A stretch of 64,000 nucleotides of DNA from Alphaproteobacteria bacterium (lineage in GTDB: Bacteria > Pseudomonadota > Alphaproteobacteria > UBA7887). The stretch lies in assembly GCA_030739735.1 (NCBI GenBank), contig JASLYQ010000002.1, positions 124,001-188,000 on the forward strand, in the 5' to 3' direction. Each line of letters begins with the position of its first letter. Within the stretch, counting starts at the first letter, position 1. This document shows positions 2,764-17,052 of the stretch, piece after piece. The notes beneath the pieces are model-generated. The model was not told where the DNA came from, searched no databases, and saw only the letters and a program-made list of their open reading frames with translations. The position numbers were made by a program, and so were the translations under genes.

Positions 2764-3531
2764 TCATACTCTGAAGGTTTCCTTCGTGCGAGCCTCCTGC
2801 GCCTGGTTGGGCGGGTAGCTCTGCCATTTGTCATGATAGTATCGGGCGCGCATGTCACCGTCCGAGGCCCGGTTGAAGGTCAGAAATACGTTGCGTCGAC
2901 TACGGCTGCCCGTGTTGGCTGGGGATCCGTGCGGCACATAGCAGTCGAAAAAGATCACGTCGCCGGGGTCGGCCTCCAACAGCACGTATTCGTCTGCGGG
3001 CTCATAGGGTGGGTCGGCCTCGGTCAGGGGCTGCCATTCCTCCGTCATCAGCGCTCTTTTGTAGTTGCCTGAGCACATGAAACTCAAGGCGCCATTGTCG
3101 AGGCGGTTCTCGTCTACCGCGATGCCCATGGTGATGAAAAAATCGCAGTAGGTATTCCAACCGGCGGCTTGATCTTGGTGCAACTGGTCGGGGCGGCAGC
3201 CGGGAAGCTTGTAGTTGACTTTCTCCTTGAACAGCAGCGGCGCTTCACCGAGAAGCTGGGCGAGACAGTCTTCGGTCTTATCCGAGATCAGCAGGTCTGA
3301 TGCGACGCGGTTATGGTCGCCGATCACGTTTTCGATTCGCACCAGGATATTCTCGTCGCTGATAGGGCTAATTTCGTAGTACTTGGCTTCCTCACCGGAG
3401 GCAGGCTGCTTGTCGCGCAGCTCGTCCAGCCAGGCGGAGATCTGCGCCACTTCCGAGGGATTGAAAAACCCCTTGATGACGAAGAACCCTTTTCCCTTGA
3501 ACGTATTCACCTGTCCCTGAGTCAACGCCAT
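2764..3531 (-). CDS. Phytanoyl-CoA dioxygenase (PhyH) family oxygenase
   Basis: PhyH proteins are Fe(II)/2-oxoglutarate dioxygenases. The 255-residue product has the metal triad HxD (H118, D120 in LHQDQ) and distal His (VPHGSPANTG, H201). An Arg about 11 residues later would bind 2-oxoglutarate. The substrate is unknown; the family includes ectoine and fatty-acyl hydroxylases. ATG at 3531 is chosen because it starts the natural N-terminus MALTQGQV; an in-frame GTG at 3555 is an alternative that would run through a run of nine G on the coding strand. It converges on the MaoC gene, 17 bases apart. A perfect FNR-type dyad lies 66 bases upstream. Confidence 0.85.
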   Translation of the reverse strand: MALTQGQVNTFKGKGFFVIKGFFNPSEVAQISAWLDELRDKQPASGEEAKYYEISPISDENILVRIENVIGDHNRVASDLLISDKTEDCLAQLLGEAPLLFKEKVNYKLPGCRPDQLHQDQAAGWNTYCDFFITMGIAVDENRLDNGALSFMCSGNYKRALMTEEWQPLTEADPPYEPADEYVLLEADPGDVIFFDCYVPHGSPANTGSRSRRNVFLTFNRASDGDMRARYYHDKWQSYPPNQAQEARTKETFRV

Positions 3532-3568
3532 CCTGGAGCCCCCCCCCAACAACACATGCGAGTACCGT

Positions 3569-3596: not shown

Positions 3597-3610
3597 TTGA
3601 TTTCGATCAA
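3597..3610. promoter_or_regulatory. Perfect FNR-family box upstream of the PhyH gene
   Basis: The sequence is TTGAT-TTCG-ATCAA, a full match to the FNR/Anr/FixK consensus TTGAT-N4-ATCAA. It lies 66-79 bases before the PhyH start on the minus strand. It overlaps the left edge of an IS3-transposase relic read on the plus strand. An oxygen-using enzyme under an anaerobic activator is unusual, so activation in microaerobic conditions, repression, or chance are all possible. Confidence 0.5.
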
Positions 3611-6326: not shown

Positions 6327-6890
6327 CTACGCGCTCTTCACCTCCGCCGCCGATTTGGCGAGGTCGCGGCCGACCGCGAGCGTTTTCAGATTGATGTCCT
6401 GCAAGCGCCGCGGCATCTCCTGGCGGATCGCCTCGTCAAAGCGATCGCGTCCCCCCAGCGAAAGCAGCGCCGCCAGCGCGCCGAGCGCCACGATATTGGC
6501 ACCGCGCGGATTGCCGAGATCGCGCGCCGTAGCGATCAGCGGCAGGCTGGTCAGAGCAATGCCGTCCGGCAGATCGTCGACGCGAGCGGAATCCGCGATC
6601 ACCGCTGCCGAGGGCCGCAGCAATGGCAGCGACGGCACTACCGCGACCTGATCAAGCACCACCAGGGCATCGAGCCCGACCACCAACGGATAGTCGATGG
6701 CGTCGCTGTCGATCACCACGTCGGAGCGGCTGAGGCCACCGCGCGACGTCGGCTCGTAGTGCTGAGATTGCGCCACTTGACGACCGTCGAGCATAGCTAC
6801 CGTGGCCAGAATACGGGCTGAGAGCTGCAACCCCTGCCCGCCAGAGCCGCCGAAGCGGACTTCGAGACGCCCTGCGATCGCCTCAGCCAT
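6327..6890 (-). CDS. korC: 2-oxoacid:ferredoxin oxidoreductase gamma subunit
   Basis: The 187-residue product is a pyruvate/ketoisovalerate ferredoxin oxidoreductase gamma domain. It begins with the family motif EVRFGGSGGQGLQLSARIL, continues with SQHYEPTSRGGLSRSDVVI and ends with GANIVALGALAALL. It completes a KorABC enzyme that oxidatively decarboxylates a 2-oxoacid (most likely 2-oxoglutarate) to acyl-CoA, reducing ferredoxin. ATG 6890 overlaps the korB stop by eight bases; the longer frame upstream is rejected. It is the last gene of the five-gene operon. Confidence 0.88.
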   Translation of the reverse strand: MAEAIAGRLEVRFGGSGGQGLQLSARILATVAMLDGRQVAQSQHYEPTSRGGLSRSDVVIDSDAIDYPLVVGLDALVVLDQVAVVPSLPLLRPSAAVIADSARVDDLPDGIALTSLPLIATARDLGNPRGANIVALGALAALLSLGGRDRFDEAIRQEMPRRLQDINLKTLAVGRDLAKSAAEVKSA

Positions 6891-7716
6891 TGACCCGAGC
6901 ACAATGGGCACGCCAGGCGGCGCCATATTCGGGACGCGCGTTCCTGGCCACAACACCGGTGCGCAAGGCCGTCGGCCGAAAGGGCTGATCGACGATATTG
7001 GAATCGACCTCGGGCCGCATGCCAGCAACCTGGTTCATAACCATGGTTGCCGAGCTACCGAGGTCATTCTTGCGGCCGTAAATCTCGGTGCAATCGGAGA
7101 TCACCTCGATGAAGGAGAAACCGTCGTGGCCGAGCGCATCGACGAAGAGGTCTTTCAACGCCGACACCTGACGCGTCAGCCCGCGCCCGACCAACCCCGC
7201 CCCTGCGGCCTCGGCTAGGGCGCAAGCATCGAAGCCCGGCTCCGGATTGCCGTGAGGGGTCGTCGTGGTATAGCGGCCCTCTCCCGTGGTCGGTGAGAGT
7301 TGACCACCGGTCATGCCGTAGACCTCGTTGTTAAGCATCATGCAGGTGATGTCGAGATTGCGCCGACAGGCATGGATCAGGTGATTGCCGCCGATGGCCA
7401 GACAATCACCGTCACCGGTGATGACGACCACGGTCAAATCGGGCCGTGCGAGCTTGAGTCCAGTAGCGAAGGCTAAAGGCCGACCATGGGTGACGTGGAA
7501 GGTGTTGGCGTCGATATAGGCGCCGAGACGGCCCGAGCAGCCGATACCGGAGACCACAGCCAAATTGTCTTTGTCCACCTCTCTCTCATGCAGCCCCCAG
7601 AGCAAGGCCCGCAGCGCAATACCGTGGCCGCAGCCAGGACAGAGAAAATGCGGCATCATCGACAGGCGCAGATAGTCCTGGATGTCGAAGGACGCGAGCT
7701 CGGCTTCGTCGATCAC
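6883..7716 (-). CDS. korB: 2-oxoacid:ferredoxin oxidoreductase beta subunit (TPP-binding)
   Basis: The 277-residue protein carries the CPGCGHG motif near the N-terminus and the thiamine-pyrophosphate/Mg motif GDGDCLAIGGNHLIHA, followed by NNEVYGMTGGQLSPTT. These are hallmarks of KorB/PorB-type beta subunits. The start is GTG 7716: AAAGGAGG lies six bases upstream and the codon forms a GTGA overlap with the korA stop. Upstream frame extension lies inside korA. Its product should pair with KorA and KorC; substrate is inferred to be 2-oxoglutarate from overall resemblance only. Confidence 0.9.
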   Translation of the reverse strand: MIDEAELASFDIQDYLRLSMMPHFLCPGCGHGIALRALLWGLHEREVDKDNLAVVSGIGCSGRLGAYIDANTFHVTHGRPLAFATGLKLARPDLTVVVITGDGDCLAIGGNHLIHACRRNLDITCMMLNNEVYGMTGGQLSPTTGEGRYTTTTPHGNPEPGFDACALAEAAGAGLVGRGLTRQVSALKDLFVDALGHDGFSFIEVISDCTEIYGRKNDLGSSATMVMNQVAGMRPEVDSNIVDQPFRPTALRTGVVARNARPEYGAAWRAHCARVNG

Positions 7717-8855
7717 GACGGCCCTCCTTTCATCAAAGTTGCCAAGGCCTTTGTTATGGCTTGCGGCTCCACAGCCTCGCCGTCTAGGCGCTCTAGCCCG
7801 CACACGGTTGCGCCGTCAGGACACAGCCGCTCGATCTCGAGCCTGAGCTGGCCAGCATTCATTTCCGGCACCAGAACGGCGCGCACACCGCGCACGGCTG
7901 CGGCAAAGGCACGCTCGGGGAACGGCCATAGGGTGATGGGGCGAAACAGGCCGGCGCGAATGCCGTCCTCTCGTGCCTCGCGCACGGCACGTCGCGCCGC
8001 GCGGCCCACAATGCCGATAGCGACAACAAGCACCTCCGCGTCGTCCACCTCTTCGCAATCGACAGCCTCGATGGTCTCGGCGTGGTGTTCGAGCTTGTCA
8101 AGCAAGCGTCGGGTCGCGGCCTCGGCCTCCGCCGGCTCTTGGGTTGGAAAGCCGTCCTCACCATGGGTCAGGCCGGTGGTATGCGCACGATAGCCGTCGC
8201 TGGGCCGGGCCATCGCCGGGACCAAATCGTCGCCCGTGGCATAGGGCCGGTAGTCCTCAGGGCGGCCGCTCGCCCATACCCGATGCAGCACGGCCGCGTC
8301 TTCGGTCAGGGTCACGGATTCAAGTAGATGCCCCAGGATCTCGTCGTAGAGCAGCACCACGGGCACCCGCAGCTGCTCGGCCAACGCAAAAGCCCGGATC
8401 GTCTGGTCGTGGATCTCCTGCGCCGAGCCCGGCGCCAGCACGATGATAGGATGGTCGCCATGGGTGCCCCAGCGAGCCTGCATGATATCGCCCTGGGCAG
8501 GTCGCGTCGGCATGCCCGTGCTGGGACCGCCACGCATCACGTCGACCACCACACACGGCACCTCGGCGAGCGCCGCATAGCCGAGATTCTCCTGCTTGAG
8601 GGAGAAGCCGGGACCGCTAGTCGCGGTCATCGCCATCTCACCGCCCATCGAGGCACCGATCACCGCTGCCATCGAGGCAATTTCATCCTCCATCTGCACA
8701 AAAGTGCCGTTGACCTTCGGCAAAAGCGTGGCCATCTTCTCGGCAATCTCGGAGGACGGTGTGATCGGATAGCCGGCGAAGAAACGGCAACCTGCGGCGA
8801 CGGCGCCGAAGGCACAGGCATGATTGCCCTGGATGCCGCGCAGACCGGGCTTCAT
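7713..8855 (-). CDS. korA: 2-oxoacid:ferredoxin oxidoreductase alpha subunit
   Basis: The 380-residue protein has the alpha-subunit pyrimidine-binding start (GNHACAFGAVAAGCRFFAGYPITPSSE). It also has the TSGPGFSLKQENLGYA, RGGPSTGMPTRPAQGD and HGDHP motifs of KorA/VorA. It dimerises with KorB to build the active site for 2-oxoacid decarboxylation. It overlaps the preceding iorB-ferredoxin gene by ATGA and korB by GTGA, so the five genes are translationally coupled. The ferredoxin (delta) function expected next to KorA is supplied as a domain fused to the upstream gene. Confidence 0.92.
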   Translation of the reverse strand: MKPGLRGIQGNHACAFGAVAAGCRFFAGYPITPSSEIAEKMATLLPKVNGTFVQMEDEIASMAAVIGASMGGEMAMTATSGPGFSLKQENLGYAALAEVPCVVVDVMRGGPSTGMPTRPAQGDIMQARWGTHGDHPIIVLAPGSAQEIHDQTIRAFALAEQLRVPVVLLYDEILGHLLESVTLTEDAAVLHRVWASGRPEDYRPYATGDDLVPAMARPSDGYRAHTTGLTHGEDGFPTQEPAEAEAATRRLLDKLEHHAETIEAVDCEEVDDAEVLVVAIGIVGRAARRAVREAREDGIRAGLFRPITLWPFPERAFAAAVRGVRAVLVPEMNAGQLRLEIERLCPDGATVCGLERLDGEAVEPQAITKALATLMKGGPS

Positions 8856-9736
8856 GCTACCGCCTCAGCGACATAGGAATGTCGCACGGCTATGGCAAAA
8901 TCGGGGCAGAGCCATTCGCAGAGGCGACAGCCAGTGCAAGCCTTCCGGTCGATCAACACCACCACTTGCTCTGAATTGAGCGCAAGGCAGCGCTCAGGGC
9001 AGATGCGCACGCAAATATCGCAGCCCTTGCACCATTCGGGAACGATCTCGATATCGAGCTTCTCGCCCGCTCCCGGCCTGGCTCGTGATATCATATCTGG
9101 CAATTTCGGCGCGGTTGGAGCCTCACCGTCGCGCCTACCTGACACCCAATCGCGGCCCTCATCAAAGGCGGCACGATTGACCTTGACGGTCTTAGGTGGC
9201 ACGAAGCGCGAGAGGGTCCCGCGCCACTCGTCCTCGGAGAACGGCAGCTTGGTCGAGAGAGCGCCGAGCAGAACCGTATTAGCCGCGCGCTCGTTGCCAA
9301 GCTCGCGTGCCATGCCGCTAGCATCCAGCGCATAGCCTTCGGCAACCTGCTCGATCACTTCGGCAGGGGCGCCCTCGACATAGCTCGATGTAGCACCGAC
9401 GCGGCGGTCACGACAGGAGAACGGTGGCACAATGCGCTTGGTGTCGGCGATCAACACACCATGCTCAGGCTCGAGATAGTCAAGCCAACGCAAGGCCTCA
9501 GCCCATTCGAGCGCGATCAGTAGATCAGCCTTGCCTTTGGGAATAGTTGGCGACCAGACCTGTTCGCCAAAGCGCACATGGCTGAACACGGCGCCGCCGC
9601 GCTTGGCCATACCGTGCACCTCGCTCTGCTTGACAGCGAGCCCACGCTCCTGGCACAGCGTCGCCAGGACCTTCGAAAGCATGATCACGCCCTGGCCGCC
9701 GACGCCGACGATGAGAACGTTGGTGGGCTCGGACAT
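8852..9736 (-). CDS. iorB: Indolepyruvate oxidoreductase beta subunit fused to a 2[4Fe-4S] ferredoxin domain
   Basis: Residues 1 to about 195 are an IorB-type domain (VLIVGVGGQGVIMLSKVLA; SEVHGMAKRGGAV). After a linker, residues 230-285 form a bacterial-type 2[4Fe-4S] ferredoxin with two complete CxxCxxCxxxCP sets (C236/C239/C242/C246 and C267/C270/C273/C277). This C-terminal part resembles the delta subunit KorD/PorD. The gene sits between iorA and korA, so the fusion could serve both enzymes. The protein is 294 residues against about 200 for ordinary IorB. ATG 9736 is chosen; the adjacent GTG 9739 directly abuts the iorA stop. Confidence 0.88.
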   Translation of the reverse strand: MSEPTNVLIVGVGGQGVIMLSKVLATLCQERGLAVKQSEVHGMAKRGGAVFSHVRFGEQVWSPTIPKGKADLLIALEWAEALRWLDYLEPEHGVLIADTKRIVPPFSCRDRRVGATSSYVEGAPAEVIEQVAEGYALDASGMARELGNERAANTVLLGALSTKLPFSEDEWRGTLSRFVPPKTVKVNRAAFDEGRDWVSGRRDGEAPTAPKLPDMISRARPGAGEKLDIEIVPEWCKGCDICVRICPERCLALNSEQVVVLIDRKACTGCRLCEWLCPDFAIAVRHSYVAEAVA

Positions 9737-9739
9737 CAC

Positions 9740-11581
9740 TCAGGCCGAGGCCGCAACCGTCGCCTCTGGGACGGTTATACAGCCACTGGTGCAGAGCTGA
9801 GCGCAGAGCGTACAGCCGATGCACATTTCCTCATCGATACACACCTTGTGATGGCCCTCAAATAAGGTATCGGACCAAGTAATAGCTGGGCATCCGATGT
9901 TCATGCAGGCCTGACAAGCGGTACAGTTCTCCTCCTTCACATTTAGTGCCGGACCCTTGATCTTAACCGGATCAAGCACGCACGGGCGATCAGCAATGAC
10001 CACAGAGACACCCTCAAAAGCGATGGCATCGGCGCAAGTGCGCTGCACGTCTGACATGTCGTAGGGATCAACGTGGCGGACGAACTCGACGCCGAGCGCA
10101 CGCACGATCTTCTCGTAATCAACCGCTGTCACTTCCTCTCCGGCCAGGGTGCGCCCGGTGCCGGGATGATCCTGGCCGCCGGTCATCGCCGTGATGTGAT
10201 TATCCAGCAATAGCACGGTGATGTTGGCCTGGTTATAAATCGCGTCAATCAGCGGCGGGATACCGGAATGGAGGAAGGTCGAATCGCCGATGGTGGCGAC
10301 AATCGGCTTTTCTTCTGTGCCCGACATGGCCATGCCTACCGCATTGCCTATCCCTGAGCCCATGGCAACAGTGGTGTCGATCGCCTGCAAAGGGTCGAGC
10401 GCCGCCAGCGTATAGCAGCCAATGTCGCCGGTGATGCGCGCACCGAGATTGCGCGCGGTGAAATAGGAGGTCATATGCGGGCAGCCAGCGCAGAGCACTG
10501 GCGGGCGGGCAAGCTCGGCCACAGCATCAAGTGCCAGGGGCGCGTCCTCGGCCGGGATCAAACCCGCCTCGGCCAGCGCGCCGCGCACGATCTCAGGCGA
10601 CAGCTCGCCCGCGCGCGGTACGAAATCCTTACCTTCGATGACAATGCCCATAGCGCGGATCTCTGTCTCAAGTAGTGGCTCGAGTTCCTCGACCACGATC
10701 ACGCGCGTGACCGAGTCACAGAACTTGCGCACGGTCTCACGGGCCAACGGATAGGACGCACCGAGCTTGAGCACGTGTGCGTCAGGCGCCACCTCTTTGA
10801 CATAGGCATAGGCCGTGCTGTGGGTGATGATTCCGTAATCGGTGCTACCCTTCTCCCAGCGCGTCAACGGCGAGTCGTCGAAGTAACGCTCCAGCGCGGC
10901 CTCGCGCTCCAGCACCAGCGGATGGCGGCGACGGGCATGAGCCGGGATAATCACGTTTTTGACCGGATCGTCGACAAACTCGCCGCCGTCCTTCTCCACG
11001 CGTGGTTGCAGCGACACGGTGCTGCGCGTGTGCGACAGTCTCGTCGTCGAGCGCAGGATCACCGGCGTGTCGAATTCCTCACTGATCTCGAAGGCAAGCG
11101 CGGTGAAGATGCGCGCTTCCTCCGCATCGGACGGCTCCAACACCGGCACCTGGGCAAACCGGGCGAAGAGCCGCGTGTCCTGCTCGTTCTGTGAAGAGTG
11201 GATGCCCGGATCGTCCGCTACCGCCAGCACCAGCCCGCCGTTGACACCGATATACGTCTGCGACATCAGCGCATCGGCAGCAACGTTGAGTCCCACATGC
11301 TTCATCGCCGAGAGCGCGCGTACGCCTGAGAACGAAGCGCCGATGGCGACATCGACCGCGACCTTCTCGTTAGTCGACCATTGCGCATGCACATCGTCGC
11401 GCGGATATTCTGCCAGGGCTTCAAGAATCTCGGTGCTCGGCGTACCGGGATAGGCCGCGGCGACGCGCACCCCACCTTCCCAGGCACCGCGCGCAATGGC
11501 TTCGTTTCCCGACAATGGCGCGGCACCCTCGTTCGGTAGCGCTGCTGCGTCCGGCACTGTCTTCTTTGTGTTTCCGCCCAA
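9740..11581 (-). CDS. iorA: Indolepyruvate ferredoxin oxidoreductase alpha subunit
   Basis: IorA oxidatively decarboxylates aryl pyruvates to aryl-acetyl-CoA, reducing ferredoxin. The 613-residue protein has the N-terminal LSGNEAIARGAWEGGVRVAAAYPGTPSTE block. The TPP region follows (LCAGCPHMTSYF; GDIGCYTLAALDPL; ATIGDSTFLHSG). Two C-terminal cluster motifs are present (CTACQACMNIGCP and CIGCTLCAQLC). The only early start is TTG at 11581, preceded by GAGGG six bases away; no ATG occurs before the conserved block. It is the first gene of the operon and has a perfect FNR-type box 75 bases upstream. Confidence 0.92.
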   Translation of the reverse strand: MGGNTKKTVPDAAALPNEGAAPLSGNEAIARGAWEGGVRVAAAYPGTPSTEILEALAEYPRDDVHAQWSTNEKVAVDVAIGASFSGVRALSAMKHVGLNVAADALMSQTYIGVNGGLVLAVADDPGIHSSQNEQDTRLFARFAQVPVLEPSDAEEARIFTALAFEISEEFDTPVILRSTTRLSHTRSTVSLQPRVEKDGGEFVDDPVKNVIIPAHARRRHPLVLEREAALERYFDDSPLTRWEKGSTDYGIITHSTAYAYVKEVAPDAHVLKLGASYPLARETVRKFCDSVTRVIVVEELEPLLETEIRAMGIVIEGKDFVPRAGELSPEIVRGALAEAGLIPAEDAPLALDAVAELARPPVLCAGCPHMTSYFTARNLGARITGDIGCYTLAALDPLQAIDTTVAMGSGIGNAVGMAMSGTEEKPIVATIGDSTFLHSGIPPLIDAIYNQANITVLLLDNHITAMTGGQDHPGTGRTLAGEEVTAVDYEKIVRALGVEFVRHVDPYDMSDVQRTCADAIAFEGVSVVIADRPCVLDPVKIKGPALNVKEENCTACQACMNIGCPAITWSDTLFEGHHKVCIDEEMCIGCTLCAQLCTSGCITVPEATVAASA

Positions 11582-11628
11582 AACTTACCCTCTCACTCCG
11601 TCACATTATGTCTTCCTGCAACAAAGAA

Positions 11629-11634
11629 ATTGTC
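11629..11634 (-). promoter_or_regulatory. Possible -10 element of the iorA operon
   Basis: On the minus strand GACAAT lies 21 bases downstream of the FNR-type box, the spacing of a class II FNR-dependent promoter. The predicted transcription start is near 11622, leaving a leader of about 40 bases to the TTG start. Inferred from spacing and a four-of-six match to TATAAT. Confidence 0.4.
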
Positions 11635-11655
11635 CGCCGGAAGCGCGGTGCGGCC

Positions 11656-11669
11656 TTGATCTGGATCAA
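11656..11669. promoter_or_regulatory. Perfect FNR-family binding box upstream of iorA
   Basis: TTGAT-CTGG-ATCAA matches the FNR/Anr/FixK consensus completely and lies 75-88 bases before the iorA start. With a -10-like element 21 bases downstream, the box would be centred near -41, the classic activating position. The controlled enzymes use oxygen-labile iron-sulfur clusters and ferredoxin, which fits induction at low oxygen. Confidence 0.7.
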
Positions 11670-12159
11670 AGTTCGCCCCAGCAGGACGGAACGCCACCCT
11701 CCGGAAAGTATGTTTTCGAAGTGTGTCACATTTTTACAATGTTTTACCAGAAATGTATCACTTCTGGCAAAGGCAACATACTACACTGGGCTGTCACTGT
11801 CATCGGGCTGCCCGCTATAGTCATACTGTGGGCGGTAAGGACATACCAAACCTCGTCGCCATATCTTCCTCCTCAGCACTTACAGCGACTGGAATGCTGA
11901 CTGGATAGAACCGGGGATGCAGACGTCAGCGCCAAAGGGTCGGTGGTTCGAATTCCCCTTCAAATCAGACGACGGTCACGGTGCACGGTGTCTGGTCGTT
12001 CTCGAATAGCGCCCCATTGCATCGCTGAGAGCCATGCAACCCTCTGCATTTTTCGCGTAGAATCAACGACACTAAGCGACCGCGATAATCACAGAACACA
12101 GCACCTTATCTACCCCTTTTATCCAATATTAGCTTGTCCACCCGTTTCTCCATTTCAGG
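11670..12159. other. Intergenic stretch between the iorA promoter and larA end
   Basis: About 490 bases of lower GC content hold no supported gene. A segment at 11942-11958 resembles a tRNA T-arm (GGTGG-TTCGAAT-TCCCC, one mismatch). The other tRNA arms are not found, so at most this is a tRNA-derived fragment. No terminator hairpin with a U-run was recognised. Confidence 0.35.
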
Positions 12160-13440
12160 TTAGCAAGCATATTGCGGGATCACGTACGGCCCCTCCGGCA
12201 CGAAAGCGACGTGGGGATCGCCCGTAGCCCCAACGCTTTCGGCAATAGCATCTTCGACCGAATAGATCATCTCAACGCCGGTCAGGGCGCGATCCTCACC
12301 GGTCAGGCCACTCGCATAAAGGCGCACGCGCCCGGCACGCATGGGCTTAAGCTGCTTTTCCGTTTGCCACTCGTCGACGGCAGCCTGGCGCTTGGCGAGC
12401 AGCGAGTCGAGAAACCCGTCCGGTCCCAACGCTAACAGGCGGCTTTGGGCATCGACGAATTCTTCCGAGCCCATGCCTTTGGCGCATTCGGATACAACAA
12501 TCAAGGTGCCACCCAGTTCCAGAATGCCGAGCGGTCCGACCATGCCTTTGACGGTCTGATAGTAGGTGCTATCCAGCGGATAGCCGGCGCTGCTAGTCAC
12601 GACAGTCCGGTAGCGGCGTGGAACCTTCAACTCCACGAAAGGGCGGGTGAACGCGACCGCCTGAAGGTGGCTTTCGACGACTTCACCGAAATTAACAAAG
12701 GATAGACGGCGGGCATCGTCGATCACCGCATTGACCGCCAGGACGCCGCCGACCATGCCGACGATTTCCAACTGATCCTGGTGCAGAGGGTTGCCCTCGA
12801 GAACGCCGTTGTCCGCGTTGGGATCTTCCATATAGCGTGCGCTGTGGAGGGTGGTGATGGTTTCAGCGTGAGCGATGCCAGGTGCGATCACTTTTCTGCC
12901 GCCGGAATAGCCAGCCATGAAATGGGGTTCAACAAGGCCTGTGACGATCCGGAGGTCGGCCTCCACGAAGCGCTTGTCGAGTCGCACCACATTGCCGCGG
13001 CTGGTATTGCCGACATGCACGTGCGCCGCATCATCTCTGGCAAAATGATTAACTACGCTAACAGTCTCGAGAACCCAGTCGTCACCGACGACGCGGCGCA
13101 GCTCCTCGCCCTCGTTTGGGGGATGCAGACCCGTTGCCACCAATACCGTGATCGCCTCCGGCGCCAAGTCGGCGTCGAGCAAGGTACGGATCAATGGCGG
13201 CAGAATGACTCCATTGGGGACCGGGCGCGTAACGTCACAAATCAAGATACAGGCGCTGCCTGCGCCTTGTGCCCGCAAGTGCAGAGGCGGTGCGCCAACC
13301 GGCCCAGCCAACGCCTTACCGACTGCGGTCAATGCATCTGGGAGCACAGGCATCTGTTGCTTTTCAAGGACGTCTGTCTGCCAGCCGGCATCGATTTCGA
13401 CCGGCAGGGTGCCCTCGCCGTACAGTAACTCAACGTGCAT
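12160..13440 (-). CDS. larA: LarA-type nickel-dependent racemase/epimerase
   Basis: LarA enzymes racemise 2-hydroxyacids using a nickel-pincer nucleotide (NPN) covalently bound to a lysine. The 426-residue product has all signature positions: H106 (ATGLHPPNEG), H173 and K183 (EPHFMAGYSGGRKVIAPGI) and H199 (TTLHS). These fall within two positions of H108, H174, K184 and H200 in the Lactiplantibacillus plantarum enzyme. Substrate may be lactate or another 2-hydroxyacid; LarA homologues vary. It is the last gene of the lar set, overlapping larB by 11 bases, so cofactor genes and the user enzyme are co-expressed. Confidence 0.9.
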   Translation of the reverse strand: MHVELLYGEGTLPVEIDAGWQTDVLEKQQMPVLPDALTAVGKALAGPVGAPPLHLRAQGAGSACILICDVTRPVPNGVILPPLIRTLLDADLAPEAITVLVATGLHPPNEGEELRRVVGDDWVLETVSVVNHFARDDAAHVHVGNTSRGNVVRLDKRFVEADLRIVTGLVEPHFMAGYSGGRKVIAPGIAHAETITTLHSARYMEDPNADNGVLEGNPLHQDQLEIVGMVGGVLAVNAVIDDARRLSFVNFGEVVESHLQAVAFTRPFVELKVPRRYRTVVTSSAGYPLDSTYYQTVKGMVGPLGILELGGTLIVVSECAKGMGSEEFVDAQSRLLALGPDGFLDSLLAKRQAAVDEWQTEKQLKPMRAGRVRLYASGLTGEDRALTGVEMIYSVEDAIAESVGATGDPHVAFVPEGPYVIPQYAC

Positions 13441-14098
13441 CGATCGCCCTTAATATCCGCAGGGCGGCACAGGCCGCGCCATAGCCGTTGTCGATATTGA
13501 CGGTGACAATGCCGGGGCTACAGCTTGTCAGTGAGGCCCGCAACGCAGTCTCACCTTCGTTTGCGACACCATAGCCTGTCGAGGTCGGCACGGCGACCAC
13601 CACGCCTGGAACGAGACCACCAAGCACACTAACCAACGCCGCGTCCATACCGGCCACGGCAATGAGCACAGACATTTCACGCAGGCGGTCAACCTTGTCG
13701 AGTAGGCGCCAGAGTCCGGCCACACCGACATCAAAGACGAGTTCGCAGGACTCGCCAGAAAACGCTAGCGTGCGCGCCGCTTCGTAGCCCGGCCCAGCAT
13801 CGGAGGTTCCGGCCGTTACTACCGCAACACGGCTTGCCCCTTTAGTCGGCACCTGCTCGCCGAAGACTGCCGTGCGCGATAGCGCATGATAATCGAGGGC
13901 ATCCGCGTGATGTCCGGGCAGCGCCGCAAACCCCGCTTCATCGAGCCGCGTCAACAGCAGCGTGCGTCTATCCGCCGTCGCCTCATCGAGAATGTGCGCG
14001 ATCTGTGCCGTGCTCTTGCCTGTGCAGAACACCGCCTCCGCCAGGCCGATGCGCGCGTGGCGATCCTTGTCGAACTCGACCTCGTGGGCGCCGCTCAT
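13430..14098 (-). CDS. larB: Nickel-pincer cofactor biosynthesis protein LarB (NaAD carboxylase/hydrolase)
   Basis: LarB carboxylates the pyridine ring of nicotinic acid adenine dinucleotide and hydrolyses the phosphoanhydride, giving P2CMN. The 222-residue product has the PurE-like C-terminal half: VAVVTAGTSD; VAGMDAALVSVLGGLVPGVV; PTSTGYG; and SCSPGIVTVNIDNGYGAA. C193 in SCSPG is a good candidate for the cysteine that forms the transient pyridine adduct. It overlaps larE by ATGA and larA by 11 bases. Confidence 0.92.
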   Translation of the reverse strand: MSGAHEVEFDKDRHARIGLAEAVFCTGKSTAQIAHILDEATADRRTLLLTRLDEAGFAALPGHHADALDYHALSRTAVFGEQVPTKGASRVAVVTAGTSDAGPGYEAARTLAFSGESCELVFDVGVAGLWRLLDKVDRLREMSVLIAVAGMDAALVSVLGGLVPGVVVAVPTSTGYGVANEGETALRASLTSCSPGIVTVNIDNGYGAACAALRILRAIDAR

Positions 14099-14898
14099 GT
14101 GTCCTTCGGATGCAAGAAGGCACTGCCCATACGATAGGGCTCGAAACGCACGGGCAGCCGCGGTGCGGCGGGCCGCATGATGCTGGTAACCGCATCGCCG
14201 AGAGAGGCACAGTCGCCGAGCCGCGCCAGGCTGTCACCGTCGAGCTCGATCACCACCGCGTCGTTGCGCACCCGACAGCGCACAGTGCGCGACTGCAATT
14301 GCCGCCTGACAAACCGTTCTGCGGCGTCCACGGCCGTCAGCATATCGGCCTCGATGCGGATGCCCGTCTCGATGCGGCTCGATAGGCACGGCGAGGCCGG
14401 TAGCTCGACCACGTCATCAAGCCCGAGCGCCGCCGCAATATCGCGCACAACTGATTTGGAGATGCCGGCCTCGACGAAGGGATGGCGCACTTGGCGCTCG
14501 GCCGCCGCATCGAGGCCCGGGCGGTAGTCACCAAGATCGTCGATGTTGGCACCGGACACCACCGTGCGATCCGTGTGCCGGGCAATGCTGTCGTAAAGGC
14601 TTGTCTTACACCAATAACAGCGATTGACCGGATTGGCGAGATAGCGCTCGTCGTCGAACTCGCCGGCATCGACCACATGCAGGTCCCAGCCGTCACGGGT
14701 GGCGCGAGCGTGCACGCGCTCGGTTGCCACGGGCGGCACCGCAGGTGAGGTGGCGTGGAACATCTGGACAGCAACAGGTGACCGGCGGTGGGCGAAGGCG
14801 GCCAGGGTCATGCTGTCGACCCCACCGCTCACCGCCACTGCCACTGCCAAGGGCCCGATATCGTCTAGCACCGCAGCCAGCGCGTCATGCATCGTCAT
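14095..14898 (-). CDS. larE: ATP-dependent sacrificial or [4Fe-4S] sulfur transferase LarE
   Basis: LarE adenylates and thiolates P2CMN to make pyridinium bis-thiocarboxylate mononucleotide. The 267-residue product has the PP-loop SGGVDS (residues 24-29). Three cysteines stand out: C94 and C97 in RCYWCKTSLY, and C171 in SPCLSSRIETG. The last matches the sacrificial cysteine of the Lactiplantibacillus enzyme. The extra CxxC pair is the arrangement reported for iron-sulfur LarE proteins, which can turn over repeatedly. ATG 14898 overlaps the larC stop by 14 bases (ATG 14892 also possible); the longer frame is rejected because it lies within larC. Confidence 0.9.
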   Translation of the reverse strand: MTMHDALAAVLDDIGPLAVAVAVSGGVDSMTLAAFAHRRSPVAVQMFHATSPAVPPVATERVHARATRDGWDLHVVDAGEFDDERYLANPVNRCYWCKTSLYDSIARHTDRTVVSGANIDDLGDYRPGLDAAAERQVRHPFVEAGISKSVVRDIAAALGLDDVVELPASPCLSSRIETGIRIEADMLTAVDAAERFVRRQLQSRTVRCRVRNDAVVIELDGDSLARLGDCASLGDAVTSIMRPAAPRLPVRFEPYRMGSAFLHPKDT

Positions 14899-16078
14899 CA
14901 CTTTCGCCCCGCACCTCCAAGGCCCATTTCTCGATCTGTCTTCGCAACCGCTCCCTTTGCGCCCGATCGCCGACATCGGCCAAATCCGCCATTTCGGCCT
15001 TGGCCGTCTGTTTGCCGTCGGGTCTTGCAACGATCTTAGCGCGAAAGGAGCCGCCTTCGCCGTCCATGACCGTTTCCCGGCGCGACAGCAGCACTCGGTT
15101 CTGTATCGTCCAGCGCAGGCCTATTGTTGCGGTTTCCGAAAAGCACGCAGCGGCTACCGCCTCGCGGGTCTCGGGCGGCGCCAGCACCTGTATGCGCGCG
15201 GCAAGACGCCCGCCCTTGCCGATGAAATCGCTCTGGGTGACATCCAGCACAGCATCGAGCGCCCGCAGACGGTCGAGGGCCAAAGCTAGATCCTCGGGGC
15301 TCTGGTCGTCCACATCGAAAGCAATCACAGCAACCTGATCGGCATCGCGCCGTGTTACCGATTCATAAAGCTGCGCCCGCAAAATGTTGCTACGTCCTTC
15401 GAGGGTCGCGGTGCCGAAGCCGTTGCCAACCGCGAGCAGCCGGCGGGGTGTCGGATCCGACGCTGCCTGGCTCGGCGCCAGATGCTTCAGGATCGCTGCC
15501 CCTGTCGGGGTAATGCGCTCGCCGTCGACGCCATCGTCAACAAGCGTCATATCACGCAACAAAATCAGTGTTGCCGGCGCCGGCACGGGAAACGTGCCGT
15601 GGGCGATGCGGACCATGCCGCGACCACGCGGCAGGGCACCACAACTCCAGCTCTGCACGCCCAGAGCCTCGATCAGCGCCGCAGAGACAGAAAGATCGAC
15701 AATGGTGTCCAAGCCGCCGAGCTCGTGAAATTTGACCTCGTCGGCAACAATGCCATGGACCTCGGCTTCGGCCTCGGCCAGCAATGCCAATATGGCAAGC
15801 GCACGCTCACGTACGGTCGCCGACAGATCAGCCACCATTAAGGATTCGCGCACTTCTCTGACAACTGTCGAATGAGGCGGATCCGGACAGCTGACGCGAA
15901 AGCGTCTTCCGACCAACCTACCGTCATCATGAGCCAGAATGTTGGCCTCTACGGCGGGTAATTGTAGTGCTGCAACTGTTGTATCAACCAGAGACTTAAG
16001 GTCCGATCTGGCATCAACTATGGCAGCAACGAACATATCGCCTGCGACACCGCCCACGGCATCGAGATGGATGTGCAT
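14885..16078 (-). CDS. larC: Nickel insertion protein LarC (pyridinium-3,5-bisthiocarboxylate nickel chelatase)
   Basis: LarC is a CTP-dependent cyclometallase that inserts nickel to complete the NPN cofactor. The 397-residue protein begins with the family motif HLDAVGGVAGDMFVAAIVD. It includes VKFHELGGLDTIVDLSVSA and the GRGMVRIAHGTFPVPAPAT block, and ends in the conserved C-terminal domain. In some lactobacilli larC is split by a programmed frameshift; here it is one uninterrupted frame. The start overlaps the dusA stop by one base. Confidence 0.92.
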   Translation of the reverse strand: MHIHLDAVGGVAGDMFVAAIVDARSDLKSLVDTTVAALQLPAVEANILAHDDGRLVGRRFRVSCPDPPHSTVVREVRESLMVADLSATVRERALAILALLAEAEAEVHGIVADEVKFHELGGLDTIVDLSVSAALIEALGVQSWSCGALPRGRGMVRIAHGTFPVPAPATLILLRDMTLVDDGVDGERITPTGAAILKHLAPSQAASDPTPRRLLAVGNGFGTATLEGRSNILRAQLYESVTRRDADQVAVIAFDVDDQSPEDLALALDRLRALDAVLDVTQSDFIGKGGRLAARIQVLAPPETREAVAAACFSETATIGLRWTIQNRVLLSRRETVMDGEGGSFRAKIVARPDGKQTAKAEMADLADVGDRAQRERLRRQIEKWALEVRGESDDDA

Positions 16079-17052
16079 CAGGCAGCGTCGCGCAGAATGG
16101 GTCCCAAGGCATCACGAACCACCTCGGGACCGGCACCGCTGCAATGCGCATTTTCGCTCAAATGACGCCGCCAGGCGCGGCCGCCACGACAGCCCCGAAA
16201 TAGACCCAGCATGTGCCGCGTGATACTGGCAAGCGGCACTCCCTCGGCGCACTGGCGCGTGATATACGGCAGCATGCTCTCGGCCACCGTATCGCGGCTC
16301 GCAACCGGGCTGGCATCGCCATAGATCCGCCCGTCCACCTCGGCCAGCAGATAGGGATTCTCGTATGCTGCACGGCCGAGCATGACGCCGTCGACAAGAG
16401 CGAGACGCGCAGCGGCCTCATCGAGCGTGGCGATACCACCATTGATGATGATCTCGAGCGCAGGAAAATCCCGCTTGAGCCGATAGACCCGCTCGTAGTT
16501 CAACGGTGGCACTTCGCGGTTTTGCTTCGGACAAAGGCCGCTGAGGATTGCCGAACGAGAATGGATGATGAAACTCCGCGCGCCCGCCTCGGCCACAGTG
16601 CCCACAAAATCGTCCAGAAATGCCACATCTGTGCGCTCGTCAACGCCAATGCGTGTCTTGACCGTGACCGGCAGCCCGCAACCTTCGATCATGGCCGAAA
16701 CACAACGCGCCACCACCTCGGGCTCGGCCATCAAACATACCCCAATCTTGCGCTGCCGGACCCGGTTGCTGGGACAGCCGATATTGAGATTGATTTCGTC
16801 ATAGCCCCAGGCCTCGGCAATAGCGGCGCAGCGCGCTAGGATCGCTGGGTTGTTTCCGCCCAGCTGCAAGGCAAGCGGATGCTCGCTGACGTCGAAGTCA
16901 AGCAGCCGCGCGCGATCGCCGTGAATCACGGCATCAGTCGTCACCATCTCGCTGTAGAGCACCGCACGCCGGCTGATGCGGCGCAGGAAATAGCGGTTAT
17001 GGCGATCGGTCCGCGCCATCATGGGTGCCACGCAAAAGCGGCGGTCAAGCAT
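16078..17052 (-). CDS. dusA: tRNA-dihydrouridine synthase DusA
   Basis: DusA reduces uridines 20/20a in the tRNA D-loop using FMN and NADPH. The 324-residue protein starts with the typical RRFCVAPMMARTDRH. It contains the active-site block NLNIGCPSNRVRQ followed by the catalytic Cys in IGVCLM, and the phosphate-binding region IINGGIATLDEA and VDGVMLGRAAYENP. The gene overlaps livF by eight bases at its start and larC by one at its end. It is therefore embedded between a transporter and the lar genes. Confidence 0.93.
   Translation of the reverse strand: MLDRRFCVAPMMARTDRHNRYFLRRISRRAVLYSEMVTTDAVIHGDRARLLDFDVSEHPLALQLGGNNPAILARCAAIAEAWGYDEINLNIGCPSNRVRQRKIGVCLMAEPEVVARCVSAMIEGCGLPVTVKTRIGVDERTDVAFLDDFVGTVAEAGARSFIIHSRSAILSGLCPKQNREVPPLNYERVYRLKRDFPALEIIINGGIATLDEAAARLALVDGVMLGRAAYENPYLLAEVDGRIYGDASPVASRDTVAESMLPYITRQCAEGVPLASITRHMLGLFRGCRGGRAWRRHLSENAHCSGAGPEVVRDALGPILRDAA

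Follow-up and report, generated by a model that had tools for sequence, protein, structure and literature searches.

FNR reads its DNA box through three residues, Glu209, Ser212, and Arg213. In Alphaproteobacteria, the FnrL/FnrN regulon (FnrL in Rhodobacter sphaeroides) combines a TTGAT-N4-ATCAA box, a hemN target, a near-box at the regulator gene, and a regulator with a CX2CX7C motif plus a fourth cysteine; TTGATctggATCAA itself stands at coxI in R. sphaeroides (PMC2908626). Dufour et al. predicted that the FNR, FixK, and DNR groups alone read the TTGAT-N4-ATCAA box; the uncharacterized groups A, B, C, and G are described there with sites related to but not identical with it (PMC2908626). The text of that study, searched for indolepyruvate, makes no mention of an ior-kor operon. 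Sphingopyxis granuli TFA encodes FnrN/FixK proteins that have four cysteines, with a displaced third cysteine marking the FnrN subgroup, and whose second helix retains Glu, Ser, and Arg (PMC7713065).

Here, we describe a box of this kind in a window of 64,000 nucleotides, by which we mean the whole stretch of DNA analyzed. It lies upstream of an ior-kor operon, and the features of the locus are as follows.

11656..11669, minus strand: FNR-type box TTGATCCAGATCAA, a perfect 5-N4-5 dyad, 74 bp before the iorA TTG start
11629..11634, minus strand: weak -10-like GACAAT, 21 bp after the box, matching TATAAT at 4/6 positions
11588..11594, minus strand: putative ribosome-binding site GAGAGGG, picked by eye, 6 nt before the iorA TTG at 11581
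9740..11581, minus strand: iorA, indolepyruvate:ferredoxin oxidoreductase alpha subunit, TTG start, 613 aa (TIGR03336 IOR_alpha, 696 bits, cut-off 651)
8852..9739, minus strand: iorB with a fused C-terminal 4Fe-4S ferredoxin domain (IOR beta matches below NCBIfam cut-offs; PF01558 POR plus Fer4)
7713..8855, minus strand: korA-like 2-oxoacid:acceptor oxidoreductase alpha subunit (NF006412, 543 bits, cut-off 411)
6883..7803, minus strand: korB-like beta subunit, true start probably internal (NF007207 2-oxoglutarate ferredoxin oxidoreductase beta, 269 bits, below the cut-off of 364)
6327..7028, minus strand: korC-like gamma subunit, true start probably internal (NF006323, 96 bits, below the cut-off of 235)

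Positions 11656 to 11669 read TTGATCTGGATCAA on the plus strand and TTGATCCAGATCAA on the minus strand, a perfect TTGAT-N4-ATCAA; the initial annotation had the sequence and coordinates of the box right, as well as its 21-bp gap to GACAAT. The five genes form a single strand-wise run whose order recurs at loci in G003 (L132) and G203 (L176) and at L012. Such operons are rare in the class, as evidenced by IorA matches at E <= 1e-100 in only 3 of 385 sampled genomes. Enzymes of the ior/kor type pass electrons to ferredoxin, and many of their relatives, though not all, are oxygen-labile; for these reasons, we infer that they would be needed at low oxygen. The initial annotation took the lability of the present enzymes as an assumption.

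The end of the larA cluster (12160) is separated from iorA by 580 bp, and iorA is plausibly the sole gene that the box could serve. That cluster is a minus-strand row (12160 to 17052) of genes for a larA-like protein of the nickel-dependent racemase family, an AIR-carboxylase-family (larB-like) protein, a PP-loop (larE-like) protein, a nickel-insertion (larC-like) protein, and a dihydrouridine synthase. The gap also holds a tRNA T-arm-like stretch, GGTTCGAATTCC, at 11936 to 11962 on the plus strand, perhaps a tRNA remnant or an attachment site; Rfam found no structured RNA in the gap, and ARAGORN found no tRNA.

How much the sequence match means depends on where one looks. Allowing up to one mismatch, the window holds 4 TTGAT-N4-ATCAA sites where 1.00 +/- 0.91 would be expected, and the 2.64-Mb genome holds 3 exact N4 sites, 1 of them within trpC. 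We used other spacings as the chance control and set the reversed pattern aside because it contains TAG, which is avoided in genes. Exact half-site pairs with gaps of N0 to N8 number 26 in this genome, with 3 at N4 and a mean of 2.9 at the other spacings, while sites one mismatch away total 77 across 30 variants, or 2.6 per variant. Genome-wide over-representation of perfect boxes was thus rejected by both the mismatch counts and the spacing controls, and the full consensus match that the initial annotation pointed out is not significant alone. The exact box is unremarkable genome-wide and rare by position: none of 2,000 Markov-1 simulations placed a perfect box in the 120-bp iorA promoter.

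Conservation before iorA orthologues provides firmer ground. In G003, from a second genus of the family, a perfect box stands 71 bp before iorA (IorA 66% identical), and in an Amylibacter MAG (L013; IorA 63%), the one-mismatch box TTGATTTGCATCAT stands 73 bp before the ATG. The distance from box to start is thus 71 to 74 bp in three lineages, near the spacing at hemN, and the three promoters are scarcely alike in their flanks when aligned on the box. The same operon in G203 has only a two-mismatch site before iorA (63 bp; P = 0.21), and the L012 iorA promoter has no box. The expectation that the box would be conserved before iorA is thus borne out in two other lineages, poorly so in G203 and not in L012, and comparison of these promoters supports positions 11656 to 11669 as an FNR-type operator that has been conserved at the ior-kor operon.

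The ior loci L012 and L013 both have aromatic-catabolism genes as neighbors. At L012, these are genes for a PaaX-like regulator (judged by eye) and a phenylacetate-CoA-ligase-like protein, and at L013, a divergent flavoprotein fusion (FAD_binding_3 plus Oxidored_FMN) that resembles salicylyl-CoA hydroxylase. At the G003 locus, a NosR-like gene (L132, 6246 to 8411; below the NCBIfam cut-off) sits directly upstream of the iorA box, between hemN and iorA.

The same dyad recurs at other genes. We ranked all 11,264 dyads that can be built from 1,024 half-sites and gaps of 0 to 10, and TTGAT-N4-ATCAA came first both in four iorA promoters (37/40) and in hemN promoters (53/60), as well as in the pool of 16 iorA, hemN, and fnr promoters (136/160 versus 101 +/- 3.9). 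In fnr promoters, it came sixth, behind dyads including TGATC-N2 and GATCT-N0, which form the core of this palindrome. Upstream of hemN, a classic activated target, the genome under study has the one-mismatch box TTGACCTCAATCAA, 73 bp before the PRYTSYP codon; the distance is also 73 bp in G002 and G003 and is 75 bp in G203. The initial annotation had suggested a scan for the box at other anaerobic genes; the box does stand before hemN and, as a near-box, before the gene for the regulator itself.

In G003, N4 accounts for 11 of 20 exact sites, while eight other spacings together account for 9. Its perfect boxes include those at iorA, at hemN, at SCP2 (PF02036) and U32-peptidase (PF01136) genes, and at a copper-ATPase-like gene. 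The SCP2 and U32-peptidase genes, lying side by side, look like ubiT and ubiU, and E. coli ubiUV and ubiT are activated by FNR (PMC10470549). Taken together, the G003 box genes are typical low-oxygen targets; the box-neighbor genes of G006 and G008, which have low GC, were left out of the interpretation.

The initial annotation read the GACAAT as the -10 of a class II promoter, the type in which the box centers near -41.5; the implied transcription start is near 11621 to 11622. The hexamer does sit at a suitable 21-bp gap. We nevertheless treat the class II reading as unproven because the match is only 4/6, which over four registers arises by chance 16% of the time, and because the spacing is not kept in the G003 and L013 promoters.

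Which protein would read the box? The genome encodes one four-cysteine CRP/FNR protein, L004 (on contig C3), and thus has the FNR-type regulator that had been anticipated; other than L004 and L005, no CRP/FNR proteins were found in it. L004 matches PF00027, PF13545, and PF00325 above cut-off, giving a cNMP-binding fold and a Crp-type HTH. Its N-terminal motif, CAACPVREVAIC, is of the CX2CX7C form, and a further cysteine aligns with the fourth ligand of a solved FNR-type regulator. Its best solved relatives are the FNR proteins of E. coli and Aliivibrio fischeri (PDB 5e44 and 5cvr; E ~1e-23), which likewise have four cysteines. Unlike in these proteins, the third cysteine of L004 is displaced by two residues, a likeness to the FnrN/FixK proteins of S. 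granuli TFA (PMC7713065).

The recognition helix is another matter. Aligned without gaps, L004 has GLTSVHVNR where FNR has GLTVETISR, so Glu209 is replaced by Val and Ser212 by Asn, and only Arg213 is kept, unlike in the S. granuli proteins, which keep all three (PMC7713065). The SVHVNR helix likewise sets L004 apart from FnrL/FnrN, with their E..SR type. Established knowledge of FNR, on which the initial annotation drew, is therefore not directly transferable to a protein that lacks two of the three box-reading residues. Against a curated FnrL model, L004 scores 114 bits, short of the cut-off of 300. In a tree in which FnrN is represented by the two E..SR proteins of G203, the L004 group joins cysteine-less VHVNR-type proteins, apart from FnrN (support 97/96), although some other forks are weak. 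The HVNR-type helix is shared with cysteine-less CRP/FNR proteins that we found in other alphaproteobacteria, which may be compared with the uncharacterized groups A, B, C, and G (PMC2908626). RedB, a new CRP/FNR group from Rhodobacter, was considered as a counterpart and set aside, given its nonpalindromic motif and a text that does not mention cysteines.

We keep L004 out of FNR proper because a defining feature, the helix, was tested and proved to be changed; most likely, it works like FNR all the same. Its orthologues in G002, G003, and G006 share its cysteines and differ little from it in the helix. A canonical four-cysteine E..SR FnrN was found neither in the genome under study nor in G000, G002, G003, and G006; G002 does encode cysteine-less E..SR proteins, one of them DNR-like.

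Boxes at the regulator gene bear on the same question, since autoregulation is an argument that Dufour et al. used in deriving CRP/FNR motifs (PMC2908626). Near-boxes with one to two mismatches precede L004-type genes in the genome under study (TTGATCTAGATTAG), G003 (TTGATCCAGATTAG), G006 (TTGATTTGGGTTAA and TTGATTTAGGTTAA), and G033 (CTGATCTAGATCAA), and G002 has a half-site only. Taken singly, those of the first three genomes are weak (P of 0.04 to 0.14) and that of G033 is strong (P = 0.002). In G033, the L004-type protein no longer has the first of the motif cysteines. We also observed that the L004-type promoters L177, L179, and L181 have TTGAT in one half and ATTAG or GTTAA in the other, a C to T change shared across three genera. 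FNR Glu209 is thought to read this base pair, and these altered halves look as if the base pair read with Glu209 had been relaxed at the regulator gene.

The distribution of hemN is a further link. Both hemN and a four-cysteine regulator occur in G000, G002, G003, and G006, whereas G001, G004, G005, G007, and G008 have neither. For a co-occurrence in 4 of 9 family genomes, the exact count is 1 in 126, with two of the genomes only 63 to 70% complete. This pattern suggests that hemN and the four-cysteine regulator have been gained or lost together within the family.

On the strength of the near-boxes at its own gene, its co-occurrence with hemN, and the poor fit of L005 as an alternative, we propose that L004 reads the box at 11656 to 11669 and induces iorA-iorB::Fd-korABC at low oxygen, a reading to which we assign a probability of roughly two in three. 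At low oxygen, the FnrN-type cysteines of L004 would hold an oxygen-labile [4Fe-4S] cluster, and with the cluster intact, the protein would dimerize and bind TTGAT-N4-ATCAA-like sites, contacting them through its SVHVNR-type recognition helix instead of the VETISR of FNR. Bound L004 would then bring RNA polymerase to iorA, whose promoter is weak, and it would activate iorA-korABC, hemN, and its own gene. In air, the cluster would be lost and all of these genes would fall silent. Counted against this proposal are the missing Glu209 and Ser212 together with the prediction of Dufour et al. on which groups read the box, the lack of box enrichment, the mismatches in the boxes at the regulator gene, the weak -10, the poor site in G203, the absence of a box at L012, and the small part of the genome in which a canonical FNR could be missing. 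Of the reading in the initial annotation, the core is supported, with an FNR-type operator conserved before ior-kor and an FNR-type regulator encoded in the genome; the significance of the perfect match and the class II promoter are weakened.

Other explanations share some of this evidence. The site could be a working FNR-type site with another reader: L005, which is CRP-like, or else a canonical E..SR protein (FNR, FixK, or DNR) absent from the assembly. The RETVAR helix of L005 does retain Glu and Arg where FNR has them, but it is CRP-like, with Arg at the position where CRP gains its reading of TGTGA, and L005 has neither a cysteine cluster nor, in its own promoter, a box. Moreover, L005-type homologues occur in relatives that have neither hemN nor the four-cysteine regulator. 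A missing canonical protein has in its favor the two E..SR FnrN proteins that G203 encodes alongside the same operon, and the genome is 98.8% complete, so such a protein could lie in the roughly 1% that the assembly lacks; the failure to find a four-cysteine E..SR FnrN in any of G000, G002, G003, and G006 argues against it. We consider another reader unlikely.

Still more doubtful is the idea that the box is a repressor or modulator site, with FNR repressing iorA or the true promoter lying elsewhere in the 580-bp gap and being fine-tuned from this site. Its appeal is that the -10 could be due to chance and that other promoter-like hexamers lie upstream, for example at 11803 to 11775, and R. 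sphaeroides FnrL represses some perfect-box operons, such as cox (PMC2908626, Table 2). However, the box-to-start distance shared by three lineages is close to the spacing at an activated gene, hemN, which speaks for activation. A chance palindrome with no regulatory role is very improbable: perfect N4 sites may be no more numerous in this genome than those at other spacings, with one inside trpC, but two other lineages have a perfect or one-mismatch box at the corresponding position ahead of iorA in promoters that have otherwise diverged, and the dyad leads the ranking of 11,264. Conservation before iorA largely refutes this reading.

The window contains one other perfect box, which may be a second site.

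3597..3610, minus strand: second perfect box TTGATCGAAATCAA, 41 bp before a PhyH-family gene
2764..3555, minus strand: PhyH-family dioxygenase gene (PF05721, 79 bits; methylphosphonate hydroxylase model below cut-off)

Dioxygenases of the PhyH type use oxygen, and so an anaerobic activator site would be odd here; repression or chance is possible.

More broadly, we lean toward the view that a noncanonical, oxygen-sensing, four-cysteine VHVNR regulator has kept a TTGAT-N4-ATCAA regulon, comprising hemN, its own gene, and iorA-kor, within this family. Regulon predictions have given TTGAT-N4-ATCAA only to proteins with the Glu-Ser-Arg triad. If our proposal is true, the E..SR triad, so far regarded as necessary, is dispensable for reading the FNR box; regulon predictions would then miss a group of regulators, and DNA recognition by FNR-type proteins would have a second solution. 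An FNR box at ior-kor would also mean that, in an alphaproteobacterial family about which little is known, the low-oxygen regulon takes in 2-oxoacid metabolism that reduces ferredoxin.
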